From a virus, in IMG/VR virus record IMGVR_UViG_3300029911_000060, positions 1 through 45,349 of that record: a DNA stretch of 45,349 bases; one strand, written 5' to 3'. Within the stretch, counting starts at the first letter, position 1. Every line of letters begins with the position of its first letter. Shown piece after piece: positions 22,637 to 44,116 of the stretch. The notes under the pieces are model-generated. The model ran no database searches. It was not told where the DNA came from and saw nothing but the letters and a program-made list of their open reading frames with translations. A program made the position numbers and the translations under genes.

Positions 22637-22870
22637 CTAATTTTTTTTTGGACCTTGGGGTAACGGCATCCAATGGGTGGCCTCTTCGTTCGCCAGCGTC
22701 CAGTAGACATCCTCGAATTCAGAGCAATCAAAATAACCCTTTCTGCGCTTGTCATGACGACAAAATCGAGCCTTGAAGCACTGGTGTTCGTCGGGGGCAT
22801 TAGGCCACCAGACCAGCACAACTTGGTCATGGTTTGGTTTACGCTCTTTTAGAGGAACCCAATCACTCAT
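22637..22870 (-). CDS. DUF551-like protein
   Basis: 77 aa from ATG 22870, GGAG 6 nt upstream, start overlapping the helicase stop (ATGAGTGA). It begins MSDWVPLKERKPNHDQVVLV and ends with ATHWMPLPQGPKKN, the DUF551 layout (W-x-P at the start, THWMPLP at the end). DUF551 proteins are common small phage proteins of unknown function. Confidence 0.75.
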   Translation of the reverse strand: MSDWVPLKERKPNHDQVVLVWWPNAPDEHQCFKARFCRHDKRRKGYFDCSEFEDVYWTLANEEATHWMPLPQGPKKN

Positions 22871-25649
22871 TGATGACTCCAATCTCTGACAAGAACCGAC
22901 TGGGTGTTACTCTCCGAGTGTTGCTCTCGTTCTGCTCCATGGAGTGTACACAAATGGTGAGGGCGTCTTTAGCGCGAGTCACGGCCACGTACCAAAGTCT
23001 GCGCTCCTCCTCAATTTCGGCCTCACTCCCCATTGAAAACCGATGAGGTAAACTACCTTCAACTACATTCGTCACATAAACCCTCCGCCACTCCAGCCCC
23101 TTTGCCGAGTGGATAGTGGACACCGTGACCATACCATCCTTGTCATCCTCACGTGCCCGGTCGATAGTAAGTTGGAATACAAGGTCTTCAGTGGACATCT
23201 TATGATCTTCGGAAAGACCACGTACAAGCTCCCTGAAGCGGTCGATGTTTTCCAGTTTGGTTTTTATCTTGTCGGGTTCCTTCTTGTACTTGTTGGAAAC
23301 ATAGCTCTTATAGTTCATGTAGTCAATGATTTGGTCAAGAGCCTGAACCGGATAGTCACCGAACTTCTGAAACCGTTCCAACGCCATTACAAACGTTGAC
23401 AACTTGTCAACAGAGGTGCAGCCCTTAATCAAGTCACCGCCGAACTTATCATTGGCCGTCTTGCGAATCTTTTCCAACGTCACATCACCAGCACCTGTCT
23501 TGGGTACGGTGACTGCACGAGCGAGAGCAGTAAAATCTTTGGGGTTGGTGGCAAGCCTCAAGTATGAAAGCACATCACGAATCTCTTCTGTTTGAAGAAG
23601 TCCGCGACCCCCGCGTATCTGATAGGGGACGCGATGACGCACCAGTGCGCTCTCAAGGTCAGGTATCTGACGGGCACTGCGAACAAGGATGCAGTTCTCT
23701 TTATATGGAATCTGATCCTTCTTACGCTGGTTATCTTTGGAAATCTCTCCGGCGATAATCAGTGCGATGTCAAGGGGCATCGAAGCACGAGTTAGTTCGA
23801 TGGTGCCCTTGTTATCCGAGTCACCACGGAAGACTTGCATCTTGAGTGGAATGGTGTCAGTCATCTTTGACTGAATGTGGTTAGCGAGATATACGATGCG
23901 CGGAAGGCTGCGATGGTTGCGTGCGATACGATACAGTATGGGTGTGTGCCCTCTCCACCCCTCTGAAAACTCCTTGAGAAGGTGTGGTGCAGACCCATTG
24001 AATCCCATGATGGAGTTCCCTACGACTAACCCATCAGCTATATACGTGTGCTCTTCTTCAACATCTAGGGAGTAGACTAACCCCTCATAGTGCCTAGATG
24101 GACAAGCAATAATAGGTACGCTTTTGTTCCGTCCCTCAATTGGGATGTCCATCAATCCCGGCAGGATGTTAGCCGCTGCTGTTTTGAAGTACCCACGCCA
24201 ACTTCTACCTATAAACCCGTCTGCACGTGGAGACAGAATCGGTTGTTCAAAAATAAGACCGTGGTCTGATAAGCAACGCTGACCCCCTTCAGGGTTAGCG
24301 TGAGAGAAGATTAGCCTAATTAGCTCATCAGTTTTGTGCCAGCACACTGTAGCTTCAAAAAGGGACTCAGGGATGCCATATTTTAGTGAGATGATTTCTT
24401 CCCATGCTTCCGCTTCCTGTCGAGTGTCATAGACGCCCAAAATCCAAGCCTTATCAGCCTTTTCTTGAGTGAACCTAGAGGAGAGCCCATAACTACCTGT
24501 AGTGCCCTTCCCTGTACTGCGCTTAAAAATGCTAAGACCCACTCTAAACCCCAAATCAGAACGATACATGAGATACACCATGTATTTTCCTGTTGTGTTT
24601 TTATTGAATCTCACCCAATTCCAGTGATTGGGGGTGCATTCAGTCGAACTGGTTTCAGTGGTGATTTTAAGTAATGCCCCTGAATAGGGGCGGTGGGCTA
24701 CTTTTATTTTCCGCCCTGAATGATAGGATATTTGGTCACGCTTGTGCCAAGTAGGAACTAAGTCACCGTCGCGCAAATCTTCGATGTTACGCAATTCGAA
24801 CCTTGATTTGACGCTACCCCTTGAAAGGGAGGTAGTGACCTTAACCTTAGTTCCCGGAGGTTGGCACTGGCTCAAATCTCCCACCGTCATTAGGTTTGGA
24901 TTAGCCGGAGCGAGAAGCCCGTTAACTACCCCCCACTGCGGAACAGACAAGTCCTGTGCCTCATCAACCAGCACAACATCAAATGCCTTCTGTAGTTGGG
25001 CTCTCCATGCTGAGTCTTGCTCACAGCGACGGTTAAACAGGCAAAGCATGTCGTCAAAATCTATCGAACCACAAGATTGTTTTTCAGCTTCGTACAGCTT
25101 CCAAATCTGCAAATCAAACGGCTCAAGAGCGTGGTGCCCTGCGTGGGCAACCAACGCTTGCTCGTGAACCTCATCGGTGTAGTCCACACAAAACCCGAGA
25201 CCCCGAGCGCGGTGATAGCCCACCTTATCAAGGAAACCATACACATAAGAACCAAGGCTGATACCTTTTTCCTTAACATCAACCGTCCGTTCTACAATCC
25301 GGCGAATCATCTGACTCTGGTCATAATCGTCCAGCGGTGTCACCTTTTGCTGGAGACCAAAACCAACCGGGTCACGGCGTATCGCTGAGAGGGCAATAGA
25401 GTGAATGGTGGATACTTTGGGGACATCGAAGGAGGCACCATCAAGTTGAAGCCGGTCTAATAATTCGTTTGCGGCCTTATTAGTAAAGGTTATCGCCGCT
25501 ATCTTTCTAGGTGGAATCCCTTGAGCGATAAGCCATTTTACTCTTTCGGTAAGAACGCGAGTCTTGCCTGATCCGGCTCCGGCGATGAGACAAGCTGGTT
25601 GCCCGAGTGGGTGTTCTACTGCGGCTATCTGTTCTTCATTCAGTTGCAT
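22863..25649 (-). CDS. UvrD/Rep-family superfamily 1 DNA helicase containing an intein
   Basis: 928 aa, of which residues 262-545 are an intein, leaving a 644-aa helicase. Helicase motifs in order: AGAGSGKT (Walker A, about residues 23-30), AITFTNKAA (Ia), VDEAQD (motif II, 228-233), VGDLSQ / SIMGFNGSAP (motif III, split by the intein), FRGDSDNKGT region, VSTIHSAKGLEWRRVYV (motif V) and RRLWYVAVTRAKDAL (motif VI). It should unwind DNA 3'-5' using ATP, in replication, repair or recombination. The ATG lies in AGTATTAGTCTACATG, identical in layout to the thioredoxin start and without a Shine-Dalgarno. It ends overlapping the DUF551 gene. Confidence 0.93.
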   Translation of the reverse strand: MQLNEEQIAAVEHPLGQPACLIAGAGSGKTRVLTERVKWLIAQGIPPRKIAAITFTNKAANELLDRLQLDGASFDVPKVSTIHSIALSAIRRDPVGFGLQQKVTPLDDYDQSQMIRRIVERTVDVKEKGISLGSYVYGFLDKVGYHRARGLGFCVDYTDEVHEQALVAHAGHHALEPFDLQIWKLYEAEKQSCGSIDFDDMLCLFNRRCEQDSAWRAQLQKAFDVVLVDEAQDLSVPQWGVVNGLLAPANPNLMTVGDLSQCQPPGTKVKVTTSLSRGSVKSRFELRNIEDLRDGDLVPTWHKRDQISYHSGRKIKVAHRPYSGALLKITTETSSTECTPNHWNWVRFNKNTTGKYMVYLMYRSDLGFRVGLSIFKRSTGKGTTGSYGLSSRFTQEKADKAWILGVYDTRQEAEAWEEIISLKYGIPESLFEATVCWHKTDELIRLIFSHANPEGGQRCLSDHGLIFEQPILSPRADGFIGRSWRGYFKTAAANILPGLMDIPIEGRNKSVPIIACPSRHYEGLVYSLDVEEEHTYIADGLVVGNSIMGFNGSAPHLLKEFSEGWRGHTPILYRIARNHRSLPRIVYLANHIQSKMTDTIPLKMQVFRGDSDNKGTIELTRASMPLDIALIIAGEISKDNQRKKDQIPYKENCILVRSARQIPDLESALVRHRVPYQIRGGRGLLQTEEIRDVLSYLRLATNPKDFTALARAVTVPKTGAGDVTLEKIRKTANDKFGGDLIKGCTSVDKLSTFVMALERFQKFGDYPVQALDQIIDYMNYKSYVSNKYKKEPDKIKTKLENIDRFRELVRGLSEDHKMSTEDLVFQLTIDRAREDDKDGMVTVSTIHSAKGLEWRRVYVTNVVEGSLPHRFSMGSEAEIEEERRLWYVAVTRAKDALTICVHSMEQNESNTRRVTPSRFLSEIGVINE
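24015..24866 (-). mobile_element. Intein inside the helicase, with GIY-YIG-like insert
   Basis: 284 residues from Cys262 (QCQPPGTKVKV) to Asn545, inserted within helicase motif III after VGDLSQ; the +1 residue is Ser. Splicing signals: N-terminal Cys, TPNH block B (His342), and a C-terminal block HTYIADGLVVGN. The penultimate residue is Gly rather than the usual His. Between the blocks, about residues 356-428, a segment starting YMVYLMYRSDLGFRVGLS and ending EEIISLKYGIPE looks like a GIY-YIG-type endonuclease core rather than the usual LAGLIDADG. Splicing would restore GDLSQSIMGF. Confidence 0.88.
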
Positions 25650-26845: not shown

Positions 26846-26922
26846 ATTGGCGGAGAGCAGGAGACCTTTTAGTTTGATTATCGGTCAATTTTTAGAAGGA
26901 AGGGCTCCAATAGCCGCGCAAT
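26846..26922 (-). ncRNA. Structured RNA element, copy D
   Basis: Same element as copies A-C (29803-30081): minus-strand consensus GGCUAUUG(S)A(R)CCCUUCCUUCU ... AGGU(Y)U(S)CUGCU(Y)UCC enclosed by a variable outer stem. Here the inner stem is GGAGCCCU/AGGUCUCC and the outer stem ATTGCGCGG/CCGCCAAT is nearly complete. It overlaps the last codons of the GIY-YIG gene and precedes the terminator. No known RNA family recognised. Confidence 0.6.
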
Positions 26923-27508
26923 GTCTAATAATACCACGATTTAATCGAGATTGTCGTATTTTTTCTTTAGTCTCCTCAGATAGAACCTTGCCTTTGTTTG
27001 CGGCTCGTATCTTCTCTCTGGTCTCTTGGGTACGTTCACCCAATATCCGACCTTCCAAAGCCTTCCGTAACTTGAGTTTTGTTTCTTCTGAACAAGGGTG
27101 AGAGCGCGGGTGTGCCACCAAACATGCCCTGACCGCTTCAATTCGCTTAGGGTTTAACCTGTTGTCAGCAGCCAGTCCGTTGGCATTTATGTAGTTAAAT
27201 CCCGGTGATAGCCCCGCCTGATTGATGTAGTCGAAACCCCCGCTACCCCCTTGTCTCAGGTTATAGCACAACGGGTCTTCGCGATACGATTCAATCAATT
27301 CAAACTCTTTGGAGAAAGCGTCTTCAGGGTTGTCGAAGACAAAACATATGTTCTTGATGAACGAGGATTCACCATACTTTTTAACCGCAGTCCGGAGCAC
27401 TTTTCCCGACCCAAGGTACCCATCATACGGGTTCCTAGTCTTGTGGACGCCGAAGTAATACCTGCCGTTTGTGATGTTCTGAGTTCTGTATACCGTGTAA
27501 AATACCAT
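26885..27508 (-). CDS. GIY-YIG homing endonuclease with NUMOD3 repeats
   Basis: 207 aa from ATG 27508 (MVFYTVYRTQNITNGRYYFG). GIY-YIG core: FYTVYRTQ and YYFGVHKT in the GIY and YIG positions, DGYLGSGKVLRTAVKKYG, and the Glu in FSKEFELIESYR. The C-terminal half has tandem NUMOD3-like units (SEETKLKLRKALEGR, TQETREKIRAANKGK, SEETKEKIRQSRLNR) that contact DNA. The start lies just after hairpin E, whose 3' arm carries the AAGGG Shine-Dalgarno, so translation is probably restrained by structure. Its last codons are part of RNA element D. Confidence 0.9.
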   Translation of the reverse strand: MVFYTVYRTQNITNGRYYFGVHKTRNPYDGYLGSGKVLRTAVKKYGESSFIKNICFVFDNPEDAFSKEFELIESYREDPLCYNLRQGGSGGFDYINQAGLSPGFNYINANGLAADNRLNPKRIEAVRACLVAHPRSHPCSEETKLKLRKALEGRILGERTQETREKIRAANKGKVLSEETKEKIRQSRLNRGIIRHCAAIGALPSKN

Positions 27509-29802: not shown

Positions 29803-29888
29803 ATAGGTTGGAAAGCAGGAGACCTGATTCTCGAAGGGAGCCTTGCGGCTCTGATTTTTAGAAGGAAGGGCTCCAATAGCCAACCTAT
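29803..29888 (-). ncRNA. Structured RNA element, copy A
   Basis: Leader of the TerD-like gene, nearest to the start codon. Outer stem ATAGGTTGG/CCAACCTAT, internal loop CUAUU/UGCUUU, inner stem GGAGCCCU/AGGUCUCC with one mismatch, conserved UCCUUCU, and a hairpin GAGCC-GCAA-GGCTC. The GNRA loop appears only on the minus strand, which fixes the likely RNA polarity. Confidence 0.7.
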
Positions 29889-30013: not shown

Positions 30014-30081
30014 GAGTCGGAGAGCAGCAGACCTAAGCTCTGTCCAATAGATGTAGAAGGAAGGGCTGCAATAGCCGACTC
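30014..30081 (-). ncRNA. Structured RNA element, copy C
   Basis: Outer stem GAGTCGG/CCGACTC, inner stem GCAGCCCU/AGGUCUGC. The distal hairpin is shorter and less regular than in A and B. A GGTATTGTATACC sequence just upstream (30083-30096) may be the promoter of this leader. Confidence 0.68.
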
Positions 30082-30118
30082 AAGGTATACAATACCACAA
30101 AAAATCAAAAGCAACCAA

Positions 30119-37910: not shown

Positions 37911-37988
37911 TGGTGCGCCCGGTGGGACTTGAACCCACGCTGACAGGGCTTTAGAGACCCCCGCTCTAGCCAACTGAGCTACGGGCGC
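37911..37988 (-). tRNA. Suppressor tRNA (CTA, reads UAG), copy 1
   Basis: 78 nt with CCA. Acceptor GCGCCCG/CGGGCGC, anticodon loop CTCTAAA (U33, CTA, A37) on a GGGGT/GCCCT stem, T-arm GTGGG-TTCAAGT-CCCAC. The CTA anticodon pairs with the amber codon UAG. The amino acid carried cannot be told from the sequence by eye. Confidence 0.88.
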
Positions 37989-38625: not shown

Positions 38626-38702
38626 TGGTGCCCCCGGAGGGACTCGAACCCACAACCTCCGGTTTTAGAGACCGTCACTCTAACCAGTTGAGCTACGGGG
38701 GC
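38626..38702 (-). tRNA. Suppressor tRNA (CTA, reads UAG), copy 2
   Basis: 77 nt with CCA. Acceptor GCCCCCG/CGGGGGC, anticodon loop CTCTAAA identical to copy 1 on an ACGGT/ACCGG stem (outermost pair mismatched). The body is related to but distinct from copy 1. Confidence 0.88.
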
Positions 38703-39136: not shown

Positions 39137-39787
39137 ATGAAGAGATTATGGGTTCTATTAAAATTATGGTTAATCACCACAGCCTTAACTCTGATAACCC
39201 TTTGGTTTCTCTTTCACCCTCTGCTTAAAATGCACTTTCAAACCGCCCCGACTGAAAAACGTCAAAGGCTGACAATAAACGATGTCGGCCCCGGTCCGGG
39301 TAGGTTCTACCATCATGGACAGGTACTCCTACCCAATCCTAACATCTCTCCCGGTATGCTCCGCCCCGGCGTCACTGCGGATGAAGTATGCAGCACCAGC
39401 ACCAAAGAGTTCAGGCACACCACCGAAGCGATGAAGATGGAAGTGTACCGTGCCTATGGGGTGGCTCCACACGAGGGTATCTGTGCTCCAACCAGCCGCA
39501 CCACCGCATCCGGCCAGCAGCGAATTGAATCCTGCGAGGTTGACCATATCGATTCTCTTGAACTAGGTGGTGCCGACGACATTAAAAACCTGTTCATCCA
39601 GCCGTACAATCCGGCTGATGGCGTGCCCGGAGCCCACGCGAAGGACGCTGTGGAGAACTGGCTACACCATCAGGTATGTGTCACCCACACCATGACTCTA
39701 CAAGAGGCACAGCGGGAAATATCCACAGACTGGTATCAGGTCTACCTGAACAACCATTTAGCTCCTGCTGACGCTTTGAGCGAGTAG
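39137..39787 (+). CDS. Membrane-anchored HNH-like nuclease
   Basis: 216 aa, one of only two genes on the plus strand. The N-terminus (LLKLWLITTALTLITLWFLF) is a signal anchor. The C-terminal half has SCEVDHIDSLELGGADDIKN then LFIQPYNP and AKDAVENWLHHQVC, the layout of a bacterial HNH-type domain (C-E-V-D-H ... E-L-G-G ... N-L). The segment TADEVCSTSTKEFRHTTEAM upstream is typical of that family. Exported or periplasm-facing nucleases of this kind could degrade incoming DNA or act as a moron; the role is unproven. A TATACT element 7 nt before the start suggests its own promoter. The 3' end overlaps the minus-strand gene at 39758. Confidence 0.7.
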   Translation: MKRLWVLLKLWLITTALTLITLWFLFHPLLKMHFQTAPTEKRQRLTINDVGPGPGRFYHHGQVLLPNPNISPGMLRPGVTADEVCSTSTKEFRHTTEAMKMEVYRAYGVAPHEGICAPTSRTTASGQQRIESCEVDHIDSLELGGADDIKNLFIQPYNPADGVPGAHAKDAVENWLHHQVCVTHTMTLQEAQREISTDWYQVYLNNHLAPADALSE

Positions 39788-39919
39788 CACAGGGCATTCA
39801 CTGTCATGGTCTTCCCAGTGCAACCACACCTTACAAAAGCGGCAACAGGTGTGTTTCCCTTTGTCGTGTTGTACGAATGCTTTGAGAACCGCCTCGGCGA
39901 GGATTTTGCTGTTTTCCAT
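39758..39919 (-). CDS. 53-aa zinc-finger protein with amber codon in its leader
   Basis: From ATG 39919: MENSKILAEAVLKAFVQHDK, then CCRFCKVWLHWEDHDSECP, a clear C-x2-C ... H ... C zinc site. The only good ribosome-binding site (GAAGGAG) is 8 nt before an in-frame ATG at 39931, which reads ATG-ACG-TAG-GAT-ATG. Full translation from there requires decoding UAG, which the CTA tRNAs could do; otherwise re-initiation at 39919 is needed. Overlaps the 3' end of the HNH-like gene by 30 nt (convergent). Confidence 0.65.
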   Translation of the reverse strand: MENSKILAEAVLKAFVQHDKGKHTCCRFCKVWLHWEDHDSECPVLLAQSVSRS

Positions 39920-40043
39920 ATCCTACGTCATGTTTGTAACTCCTTCTTCGTTGTGCTACAGTTTGAATGATGCTGGATACGGGCTTCTATCCTTTCACCG
40001 TATCACAGCAGGGACGGGGGCAGATTTGACGCAGCCCCCTGCG

Positions 40044-41674: not shown

Positions 41675-42020
41675 AGGCAACCTCCTCTCTTTCACGGATG
41701 ATGAAAGCTTCCGTGACTTTACGGTTCTTGTAGTCGGCGGCGAGAATCTCAGCGATAGTCTGATGGAGAGCCACGCGGAGTATCTTGCCCTTCCTGCGGT
41801 CGATGATGGCATAGAGCCCGGTGGATGAGACCTCACCCTTCTGAAGCTCCTTGCTGCCTTCCCTGATGGAGACACGCTCCACATGATAGGGAAGGCTGGA
41901 AAGCTTCACAGCGTGGTCGGCAAGCGCCTTGCTGAAGGTAATGCGATGGACAGCTTTGTCGCTGACAATCGCCCAAGCCTTATCGTTAGGGCACCCTTTG
42001 ATGGAGCATTGAATAGCCAT
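41664..42020 (-). CDS. 118-aa hypothetical protein
   Basis: From ATG 42020, GGAGG 7 nt upstream. Begins MAIQCSIKGCPNDKAWAIVS; the N-terminal cysteines may bind metal. The middle is helical (LADHAVKLSSLPYHVERVSI) and the C-terminus is basic. In tight overlap with both neighbours. Function unknown. Confidence 0.55.
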   Translation of the reverse strand: MAIQCSIKGCPNDKAWAIVSDKAVHRITFSKALADHAVKLSSLPYHVERVSIREGSKELQKGEVSSTGLYAIIDRRKGKILRVALHQTIAEILAADYKNRKVTEAFIIREREEVACAA

Positions 42021-42283
42021 TATGCCGCCTCCTGTAACAGGAGAGTTGATTCCTGTGGAGACCAAAGCTTGTACGTACCAAGAGCACGACGCTGCTTCTT
42101 ATTAGTGATGGGGTATGTGGCGATAGCGGTGAGGCCAAGGTCGTAATCGGGCTCGTAGAAAGCCTCGAATGCGATACCATAGCGCGTGAGCCTAGCGGCT
42201 ACGGCTTCAAGGGATGACTTGTCGGGGATACCGATGAGGACAACCGAAGGTGTTTCATTGTAGTCGGTGAGTCGTTTTGCCAT
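42020..42283 (-). CDS. Pth2-fold-like small protein
   Basis: 87 aa. SVVLIGIPDKSSLEAVAARL then AFYEPDYDLGLTAIATYPIT resembles the second half of the Pth2 fold (strand-helix, then an E-P-D-x-x-L-G-x-T-A-I-A-T block). The C-terminus is basic. It could be a third Pth2-related protein here or a distinct phage family of similar shape. Faces the plus-strand endonuclease gene across an AT-rich spacer. Confidence 0.5.
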   Translation of the reverse strand: MAKRLTDYNETPSVVLIGIPDKSSLEAVAARLTRYGIAFEAFYEPDYDLGLTAIATYPITNKKQRRALGTYKLWSPQESTLLLQEAA

Positions 42284-42321
42284 CTCGAAAGTGGCGTGGT
42301 TGGATTGGACTATCTGTTGGG

Positions 42322-42346
42322 CAAGATTATCTTTGGGAAAATCTTG
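42322..42346. promoter_or_regulatory. Inverted repeat in the divergent intergenic region
   Basis: CAAGATT...AATCTTG, 7-bp arms with an 11-bp spacer, midway between two divergent genes. Could be an operator or a hairpin in one leader. Confidence 0.45.
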
Positions 42347-42414
42347 TCTAACAAATACATAGATGTAGGGGTCATTCAGCTAGGTCATACATTTAGCCCC
42401 TCCTTGAGGCTACC

Positions 42415-43059
42415 GTGCAAAAATATGCTACTTTGAAATCTGTAACTCCAGTTGAACTACAAACGATTATTACCGAGTCCACTCATGTTTGTCAAATTCT
42501 TCATAAATTTGGACTAACCAATGGTACCGGGAACCACCGCACATTCTGGAAAACCATAGAAGAGTTGGGTCTTGATACTTCCAACATCGTCAGAGGGCGC
42601 GGAGGGCCTCTAGTAAGTAAATCCGAAAACCACAAACTTAAACTTCGACTGAGTAAATTGGCAAAACACGGAGTGTCGGCTGAAGATTGTGAAAGTAACA
42701 AAGGCAACCGCTGGTGTGCGAGGCATAAATCATTTCTTCCACAATCGGCGTTCCACACCGGGAAGCGCGGCTCATGTAGGCAATGCTGCCGAGAACAGAA
42801 CTTTGAAAGGTCGCACCACCTTCCGTACGAATGGTACACAACCACACTGCAAAAGCAAAACGGAGGGTGTGCCATCTGCCACACACCGCCCGAAGAGGGC
42901 CGGGTGTTGTGCTTAGACCACGACCATAGATGCTGTGCAGGAGAGGGGTCATGTGGTGAGTGTGCGAGGGGCTTGCTTTGCAGCCGCTGCAACACACTCG
43001 TGGGTTGGTTAGAGTGCAACCGAGAGATAGTTGAGACAGCGTTGCAGTATGCAGCCTAG
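42415..43059 (+). CDS. Endonuclease VII-like HNH endonuclease
   Basis: 214 aa from a GTG with GAGG 6-7 nt upstream, on the plus strand. The C-terminal half contains CAICHTPPEEGRVLCLDHDH, then CARGLLCSRCNTLVGWL: the zinc-binding, D-H-D-H-bearing fold of the recombination endonuclease VII/HNH group. The N-terminus has HTH-like character (SLSKLAKHG-type region). Free-standing relatives are often homing endonucleases in phages; a Holliday-junction role is also possible. Its stop overlaps the end of a minus-strand gene by 4 nt. Confidence 0.8.
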   Translation: MQKYATLKSVTPVELQTIITESTHVCQILHKFGLTNGTGNHRTFWKTIEELGLDTSNIVRGRGGPLVSKSENHKLKLRLSKLAKHGVSAEDCESNKGNRWCARHKSFLPQSAFHTGKRGSCRQCCREQNFERSHHLPYEWYTTTLQKQNGGCAICHTPPEEGRVLCLDHDHRCCAGEGSCGECARGLLCSRCNTLVGWLECNREIVETALQYAA

Positions 43060-43459: not shown

Positions 43460-43702
43460 TCACCTCGGTGTCACTACCTTGGAGACTCTCTCCATTGTGG
43501 AGAAAAGACACGCAGTCTCCGATATCGAAAAAAAGCTTACGAAGATCTTGTGCTCACCGCCATCTTTAGTATTGCCATCACTCCAGATTTGAGCCACGCC
43601 GGTCCAGCCACCATAGTCCTCATCCTCAATCCAATGCACTTGAAATGAAGGGTAGTGTGAATTATTAAGACGGGTTCTGGTTGTGTGAGTTCTGCGAGAC
43701 AT
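43460..43702 (-). CDS. 80-aa hypothetical protein
   Basis: Begins MSRRTHTTRTRLNNSHYPSF; AGGAG 4-5 nt upstream. Contains QVHWIEDEDYGGWTGVAQIW, a beta-rich aromatic stretch. First gene after the tmRNA hairpin. Function unknown. Confidence 0.6.
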   Translation of the reverse strand: MSRRTHTTRTRLNNSHYPSFQVHWIEDEDYGGWTGVAQIWSDGNTKDGGEHKIFVSFFSISETACLFSTMERVSKVVTPR

Positions 43703-43718
43703 AGACTCCTAATCGGCA

Positions 43719-43738
43719 GAGGCCGCTTTCGCGGCCTC
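43719..43738 (-). terminator. Terminator-like hairpin after the tmRNA
   Basis: Perfect 8-bp stem GAGGCCGC/GCGGCCTC with a GAAA tetraloop on the minus strand. No strong U-tract follows, so it may also be a processing or stabilising hairpin. Confidence 0.65.
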
Positions 43739-43744
43739 ACCCTA

Positions 43745-44080
43745 GACAGGACTGGGAACAAGGTAACTGTCAACCTTGGCAGGGCTGGTTATTAAGCAGC
43801 CATTGCGTATGCAGGAGTTTCCGCATTTATTTTTGTTGCATTCCCGTATAGGCCATGCCATCCACCGTATTGCGTGGAATCGCTGACCCTCTCCGGCTCC
43901 CCGGAGAACGAACAGGTATACTAAAACGAGTTGTAGACCGCTTCCGCCTGAACACCCGTCGAAACCGTGACACACCCAAGGTGAAACAATGAAACCAAAC
44001 TTGGTGGATGTGGTGGGAGTCGGACCCACGTCCGAATGTCGTTTAGAACGTCTTCAGTCCCTTGCGGGACAAACAACCAT
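43745..44080 (-). ncRNA. ssrA: Circularly permuted (two-piece) tmRNA
   Basis: Transcription order: first the 3' acceptor piece (44080-44002) with hairpin GTCCC-GCAA-GGGAC, T-arm GTGGG-TCCGACT-CCCAC, acceptor strand CACATCC, discriminator A and CCA. A spacer of about 24 nt follows, then the coding piece starting at 43977 with GGGTGTG, which pairs with CACATCC (one G-U), and the hallmark GGTTTCGACGGG. The tag frame at 43839-43789 is GCA...GCT-GCT-TAA-TAA, encoding ATKINAETPAYAMAA; its end resembles the YALAA ClpXP degron. A hairpin CAAGGT/ACCTTG follows. It rescues stalled ribosomes and tags nascent proteins. Confidence 0.9.
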
Positions 44081-44086
44081 GTACAA

Positions 44087-44116
44087 ATAATACCCGTATT
44101 CGAAAAACTTTGTCAA
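44087..44116 (-). promoter_or_regulatory. Strong sigma70-type promoter of the tmRNA
   Basis: Consensus TTGACA (44116-44111), 18-bp spacer, TATTAT (44092-44087). Transcription would start near 44080, exactly at the acceptor piece of the permuted tmRNA. Confidence 0.8.

Follow-up and report, generated by a model that had tools for sequence, protein, structure and literature searches.

The locus analysed here raises the question of how a small gene is translated when its third codon is an in-frame amber TAG. The window, that is, the whole stretch of 45,349 bases of an IMG/VR virus record that was analysed, derives from a large tailed phage and encodes a tail sheath, a head protease, a nicotinamide phosphoribosyltransferase, and a helicase whose best match among named phages is Tunturiibacter phage Tunturi_5. 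An earlier note had reported GAAGGAG followed by ATG-ACG-TAG-GAT-ATG, all in frame with a zinc-finger gene, together with CTA tRNAs in the same genome, and had proposed either activation by amber suppression or a start-stop leader that forces re-initiation. Direct reading of the minus strand reproduced the arrangement exactly: the open reading frame of 53 residues ends at 39758 and is in frame with the upstream motif, in which the first and second ATG occupy 39931–39929 and 39919–39917, respectively. Two CTA tRNA genes are indeed present on the same strand. The features of the window are summarized in Table 1.

Table 1. Features of the window discussed in the text.
Feature	Position	Strand	Remarks
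tRNA, anticodon CTA, putative amber suppressor	37911..37988	minus	ARAGORN label "Pyl" reflects the anticodon only
Second tRNA, anticodon CTA	38626..38702	minus	
HNH-like gene	39137..39787	plus	Convergent with the zinc-finger gene; overlaps its 3′ end
Zinc-finger-like gene, from first ATG	39758..39931	minus	M-T-amber-D-M-ENSKILAEAV...HDSECPVLLAQSVSRS
In-frame amber TAG, codon 3 of zinc-finger gene, conserved	39923..39925	minus	Homologue comparison
Shine-Dalgarno-like GAAGGAG, zinc-finger gene	39940..39946	minus	8-nt spacer to first ATG
Pth2-like gene, from first ATG	42020..42388	minus	M-T-amber-LNDPYIYVFVRQDFPKDNLAQQIVQSNHA...
In-frame amber TAG, codon 3 of Pth2-like gene, conserved	42380..42382	minus	Homologue comparison
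Shine-Dalgarno-like AAGGAGGGG, Pth2-like gene	42397..42405	minus	8 nt before ATG; sequence read directly
Sigma-70-like promoter match TTGACA-18-AATAAT, 11/12	42466..42495	minus	5′ of Pth2-like gene; consensus match only
Permuted tmRNA	43701..44094	minus	Rfam RF04321; predicted tag AETPAYAMAA

In the window, the HNH-like gene lies between the zinc-finger gene and a 128-residue gene. In an 88.9-kb relative (G003; L020 1874–2491) it lies on the opposite side of the zinc-finger gene, and only the tail (GVLEKLEGQKTEV) of the 212-residue neighbour was seen in that relative. The HNH-like gene looks mobile from its sequence context. Elsewhere in the window, a 928-residue helicase (22863–25649, minus strand) aligned over its full length with intein-containing SPO1-type UvrD-like helicases and likely contains an intein. 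Short near-identical repeats at 26884–26937, 29854–29881, and 30054–30098, about 3 kb apart, also occur in relatives.

Conservation of the amber codon in zinc-finger homologues

Homologues of the zinc-finger protein were gathered, in part by profile search and motif search, and five distinct members were compared. Residues C27, C30, H39, and C43 (positions as in the window sequence after alignment) were invariant in all five, and the protein gave no Pfam or PHROG match above the cut-off. The zinc-finger assignment of the earlier note thus holds at the level of the invariant C..C and H...C pairs and finds no counterpart among the profile families; we regard the label as reasonable and metal binding as putative. 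An Rfam search for a structured leader 5′ of the gene returned no family.

The earlier note had suggested checking whether related phages keep TAG or a sense codon at this position. TAG was kept in all five distinct homologues, each time as ATG-ACN-TAG. The start of the 88.9-kb relative, ATG-ACA-TAG-GAA-ATG-GAA-AAC-AGC, differs from the leader of the window by two changes, both at third codon positions. G020, G021, and G022 have ATG-ACA-TAG-GTG-ATG-GAA in common, L026/G019 has ATG-ACG-TAG-GTG-GAA-GAG-AAC, and L148 has ATG-ACA-TAG-GAT-AAA-GAA-AAT. The second ATG is therefore replaced by GAA in L026 and by AAA in L148, and the L148 gene contains no start codon from the TAG to the conserved block. 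The stop codon of the preceding gene and the first ATG overlap in L026 (ATGA), in keeping with this ATG being the true start. Homologues that start at the second ATG behind an unconserved leader had been named as the outcome that speaks against the claim; what we found is the opposite, with the leader kept in every member and the second ATG absent from two.

A second early-amber gene encodes a Pth2-like protein

We scanned the window for a Shine-Dalgarno-like site followed by ATG, TAG at codons 2–6, and an open frame. Exactly two matches were obtained, the zinc-finger gene and a Pth2-like gene starting at 42388 with ATG-ACC-TAG-CTG-AAT-GAC, and in both the TAG at codon 3 recurs in related phages. 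These results indicate that the early amber codon in the two genes is not due to chance. Apart from these two, no credible early-amber gene was found in the window, G003, G019, or G022. The list of open reading frames made under the standard code began the Pth2-like gene 35 codons too late.

The AlphaFold2 model of the Pth2-like protein had a pLDDT of 90.5, and in a Foldseek search with this model PDB ranks 1–13 were all Pth2 (E = 1.9e-5 to 4e-4), with the next match at E ~0.1. The Pfam PF01981 score was 13.7 for the window member, below the cut-off of 23, and 25.3 for the member from phage XacN1, above it; 8 of 12 members matched PF01981 at E ≤ 0.1. The modelled protein is thus assigned to the Pth2 fold, and its peptidyl-tRNA hydrolase activity is putative. 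All 12 members matched PHROG 34073, a 77-residue profile, which is consistent with a family built from truncated gene calls.

Among the homologues, the start reads M-T-amber in G019, M-H-amber in G003 and G020–G022, and M-K-amber in G009 (36% identical). Codon 2 is variable and the amber codon constant among these relatives. A bacterial homologue from Paraburkholderia has no amber codon.

Distribution of the amber codon across the Pth2-like family

The set of 70 Pth2-like genes consisted of 63 loci from an IMG/VR profile scan, the window, G009, four isolated phages (ME3, BF, Arash, and XacN1), and LR756511, and was reduced to 49 distinct genes (below 85% identity). In 35 of the 49, an amber codon follows an ATG and precedes the domain, at codon 3 in 24 genes, codon 4 in 3, codon 5 in 3, and codons 6–13 in 4. 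The remaining gene, L175 (4960–5001), has the TAG with no in-frame start and an ATG in another frame, which we ascribe to a sequencing error or a frameshift. XacN1 falls among the 14 genes without amber merely because its amber codon sits far upstream, at the start of a fusion, and the other 13 contain no early stop of any kind. TAA or TGA was never found at the early-stop position in this set.

Several of the phages with early-stop-free genes have a CTA tRNA (L156, L159, L161, L167, L179–181, L183, and L184), so the tRNA does not require the amber codon there and may have other targets. In L179–L181, which are among these phages, codon 3 of the Pth2-like gene is CAA (M-T-Q) instead of the amber seen in M-T-amber starts.

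One explanation for the early stops is that the genes are dead or decaying and are not expressed, as a stop near the start is normally inactivating. Much the same codon is stopped in proteins that are just 33–45% identical, however, the conserved domain behind the stop has remained open, and ribosome-binding sites persist: a Shine-Dalgarno-like site precedes 31 of 34 amber-bearing Pth2-like genes. We consider inactivation very improbable.

A second explanation is a start-stop minigene, in which the two-codon reading frame ends by RF1 termination or drop-off and the protein arises from re-initiation downstream. Early peptidyl-tRNA drop-off with clearance by Pth is established (PMC10192219), and a minigene is reported to regulate the axe-txe operon (PMC8708949). 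Drop-off would also suit a sensor for a peptidyl-tRNA hydrolase, and in the window the second ATG of the zinc-finger gene lies one codon past the TAG. On the other hand, no ATG, GTG, or TTG occurs between the TAG and the conserved R-x-D in 24 of the 35 distinct amber-bearing Pth2-like genes, so re-initiation is unable to make those proteins, and the L148 zinc-finger gene likewise offers no restart codon. Moreover, TAG is the sole stop used and the leader reaches up to 13 codons. The re-initiation reading of the earlier note is accordingly disfavoured, and we judge a minigene to be improbable as the general explanation. Weak re-initiation may take place on the zinc-finger genes of the window, G003, and G022, in which the second codon past the amber is ATG.

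The base 3′ of the TAG was a purine (G or A) in 32 of the 35 Pth2-like genes. In a comparison set of 100 TAG stops, taken from mechanically predicted open reading frames in five phages, a purine followed in 44. A 3′ purine favours amber suppression.

A conserved amber at codon 3, again preceded by a Shine-Dalgarno-like site, occurs in two further families, one of an HD-like gene and one of a gene of L134/L137. The HD-like gene, which is part of the fusions in XacN1 and RAS14 and separate in L132, gave no Pfam match, and its name rests on a reading of its HD motif.

Early amber codons in isolated phages

Isolates were found by tblastn in a phage collection, and their N-termini were then read. 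The Pth2-like gene starts M-T-amber in Acinetobacter phage ME3, M-L-amber in Salmonella phage Arash, M-T-H-amber in Serratia phage BF and the uncultured 595-kb LR756511, M-A-Q-amber in Pectobacterium phage CBB and Cronobacter phage GAP32, and M-A-H-amber in Erwinia phage Kaldavass and Xanthomonas phage XbC2. In the annotated records the gene starts 3′ of the amber or is missing, and the early amber explains why GenBank mostly truncates or misses it (GAP32, CBB, Arash, BF, and RAS14). XacN1 was considered as an exception without amber, which was ruled out by the M-K-amber start of its HD-Pth2 fusion (ORF364; GAGGA..ATG-AAG-TAG-ACC, upstream of the annotated start). The same HD-Pth2 gene of Stenotrophomonas phage RAS14 also starts M-K-amber, with no ATG from the amber to the conserved block.

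RaK2 has no amber in its Pth2-like gene and has eight tRNAs, none of which is CTA. Just 5′ of the RaK2 start (L064 ~1465–1485), the stretch CTT-CAT-TAG-GTA-AAC-AAT-ATG resembles the M-H-amber-V-N of G022 with the ATG lost, and may be a relic or chance.

CTA tRNAs and tmRNA accompany the amber-bearing genes

All amber-bearing isolate genomes that were searched, whether in full or by pattern, yielded a CTA tRNA (ME3, Arash, GAP32, BF, XacN1, and RAS14), as did LR756511, the window (two), G003, G019, G022, and G009. G028 contains a CTA tRNA-like sequence missed by ARAGORN, and no CTA tRNA was found in the amber-bearing contigs G026, in which an ATG directly follows the TAG, and G029. The association of amber and CTA tRNA within 5 kb was modest (21/10 versus 4/9, Fisher p = 0.044). 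The body and discriminator base of 60 distinct CTA tRNAs were very diverse, so no synthetase can be assigned. The Arash tRNA (L059 2801–2875; 49173–49247) is tRNA-Phe in GenBank and has the anticodon CTA by ARAGORN. ARAGORN also predicted TTA-anticodon (ochre) tRNAs near the Pth2-like genes of L138, L164, and L169.

The window, G003, and G022 share the order tmRNA, Pth2-like gene, zinc-finger gene, CTA tRNA, with all four on a single strand. Among the 31 distinct IMG/VR loci with an amber, nine have a tmRNA within 5 kb. Several other phages likewise have a tmRNA similar to that of the window close to a Pth2-like gene.

TAG still serves as a regular stop codon

In the window, G003, and G022, 25–30% of the predicted genes end with TAG. 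Long genes of the window, such as the tail-sheath gene, have no internal TAG, and no other TAG conserved inside a sense-strand gene was found in the window family, which argues against general recoding. These observations rule out recoding of TAG across the genome. Conserved internal TAGs listed between relatives of the window were judged to be antisense shadows of real genes. A thioredoxin frame that continues past a TAG into a membrane segment (32859–32329) was rejected as a readthrough candidate: the near relatives searched yielded no such thioredoxin, and its TAG was taken as a real stop. In regards to other phages, the Pth2-like genes of Myxococcus phage Mx1 and of Lak phage have no in-frame amber start. 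An opal test made use of Agrobacterium phage Atu_ph07, a carrier of a UCA suppressor, and its annotated archaeal-type Pth2 showed no early TGA.

Proposed mechanism and purpose

Of the two readings in the earlier note, the comparative evidence favours amber suppression: the stop is always TAG, a CTA tRNA is its usual companion, and restart codons are mostly absent. Coding sequence directly behind the conserved amber and the 3′ purine are further features seen in the sequences. It is probable, judging from these features, that translation of the zinc-finger and Pth2-like genes is gated by the phage amber-suppressor tRNA and that TAG is otherwise a stop. Ribosomes would initiate at the strong ribosome-binding site and, without the suppressor, terminate after two or three residues at UAG. 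The phage CUA tRNA would insert an amino acid at UAG to give the full-length protein, which would appear only when the suppressor tRNA is made and charged. Since termination is expected unless the CUA tRNA is present, protein output would follow suppressor activity. We infer that suppression takes place in infected cells, as well as the insertion of an amino acid and the use of the codon as a gate or homeostat.

As to purpose, the likeliest, which we hold with less confidence, would be to couple the amount of an enzyme that clears peptidyl-tRNA to the level of amber suppression, within a gene block that frequently includes tmRNA. Such a homeostat is conceivable because amber suppression gives readthrough ribosomes that tmRNA helps clear. 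The main rival shares the suppression step and differs in purpose: in a plain timing gate, suppression would simply hold back the products until the phage tRNAs have built up, and would itself receive no feedback. The suppressor tRNA is made by the phage, a near-consensus promoter (a consensus match only) lies 5′ of the Pth2-like gene, and timing has been discussed for recoded phages, being proposed for the late genes of code 15 phages (PMC10879173). However, the gated genes are translation-related or small rather than structural or lysis genes, and the longest window genes are free of internal TAG as described above. We regard a pure timing gate as possible, with some doubt.

Coupling to suppression may extend to many large phages that use the standard code, in which the CUA tRNA would permit and meter a few translation-related genes, so that suppression makes the hydrolase that cleans up after suppression. 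We put this generalization forward tentatively, as a serious possibility. The early-amber genes themselves point to a conserved stop-codon control in phages without genome recoding.

Comparison with known systems

The prfB gene for release factor 2 is autoregulated through an early UGA stop with a frameshift. As in prfB, a stop close to the 5′ end of the present genes would sense how termination is proceeding and regulate a protein of translation; unlike prfB, they use UAG and a suppressor tRNA with no change of frame, instead of UGA and a frameshift.

In phages with code 15 (crAss-like and Lak), TAG is recoded by a phage CUA tRNA (Borges et al. 2022, cited in PMC10879173; PMC9523058). The likeness is that a phage CUA tRNA lets UAG be sense, possibly as a regulatory gate; in the window family, by contrast, TAG is an ordinary stop and a few genes have one amber near the start.

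Bacterial SsrA offers a further parallel. Readthrough ribosomes arising from suppression are cleared by tmRNA (Ueda et al. 2002, as cited in PMC3985003), and several of the present phages have a tmRNA next to their Pth2-like and CTA tRNA genes; the citing passage in PMC3985003, unlike the present case, mentions no amber-gated gene. No report of start-proximal ambers was found in the literature searched, of which coverage was partial.

A further likeness is to standard-code jumbo phages with CTA tRNAs. XacN1 has two CUA suppressor tRNAs, whose target genes were not identified by its authors (PMC5852040), and RsoM2USA has one, with targets only assumed (PMC8504454). ORF364 of XacN1 also starts M-x-amber, and because this amber lies upstream of the annotated start it was out of its authors' view. 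The early-amber genes described here thus supply a candidate target for these orphan CUA suppressor tRNAs, which jumbo phages encode.
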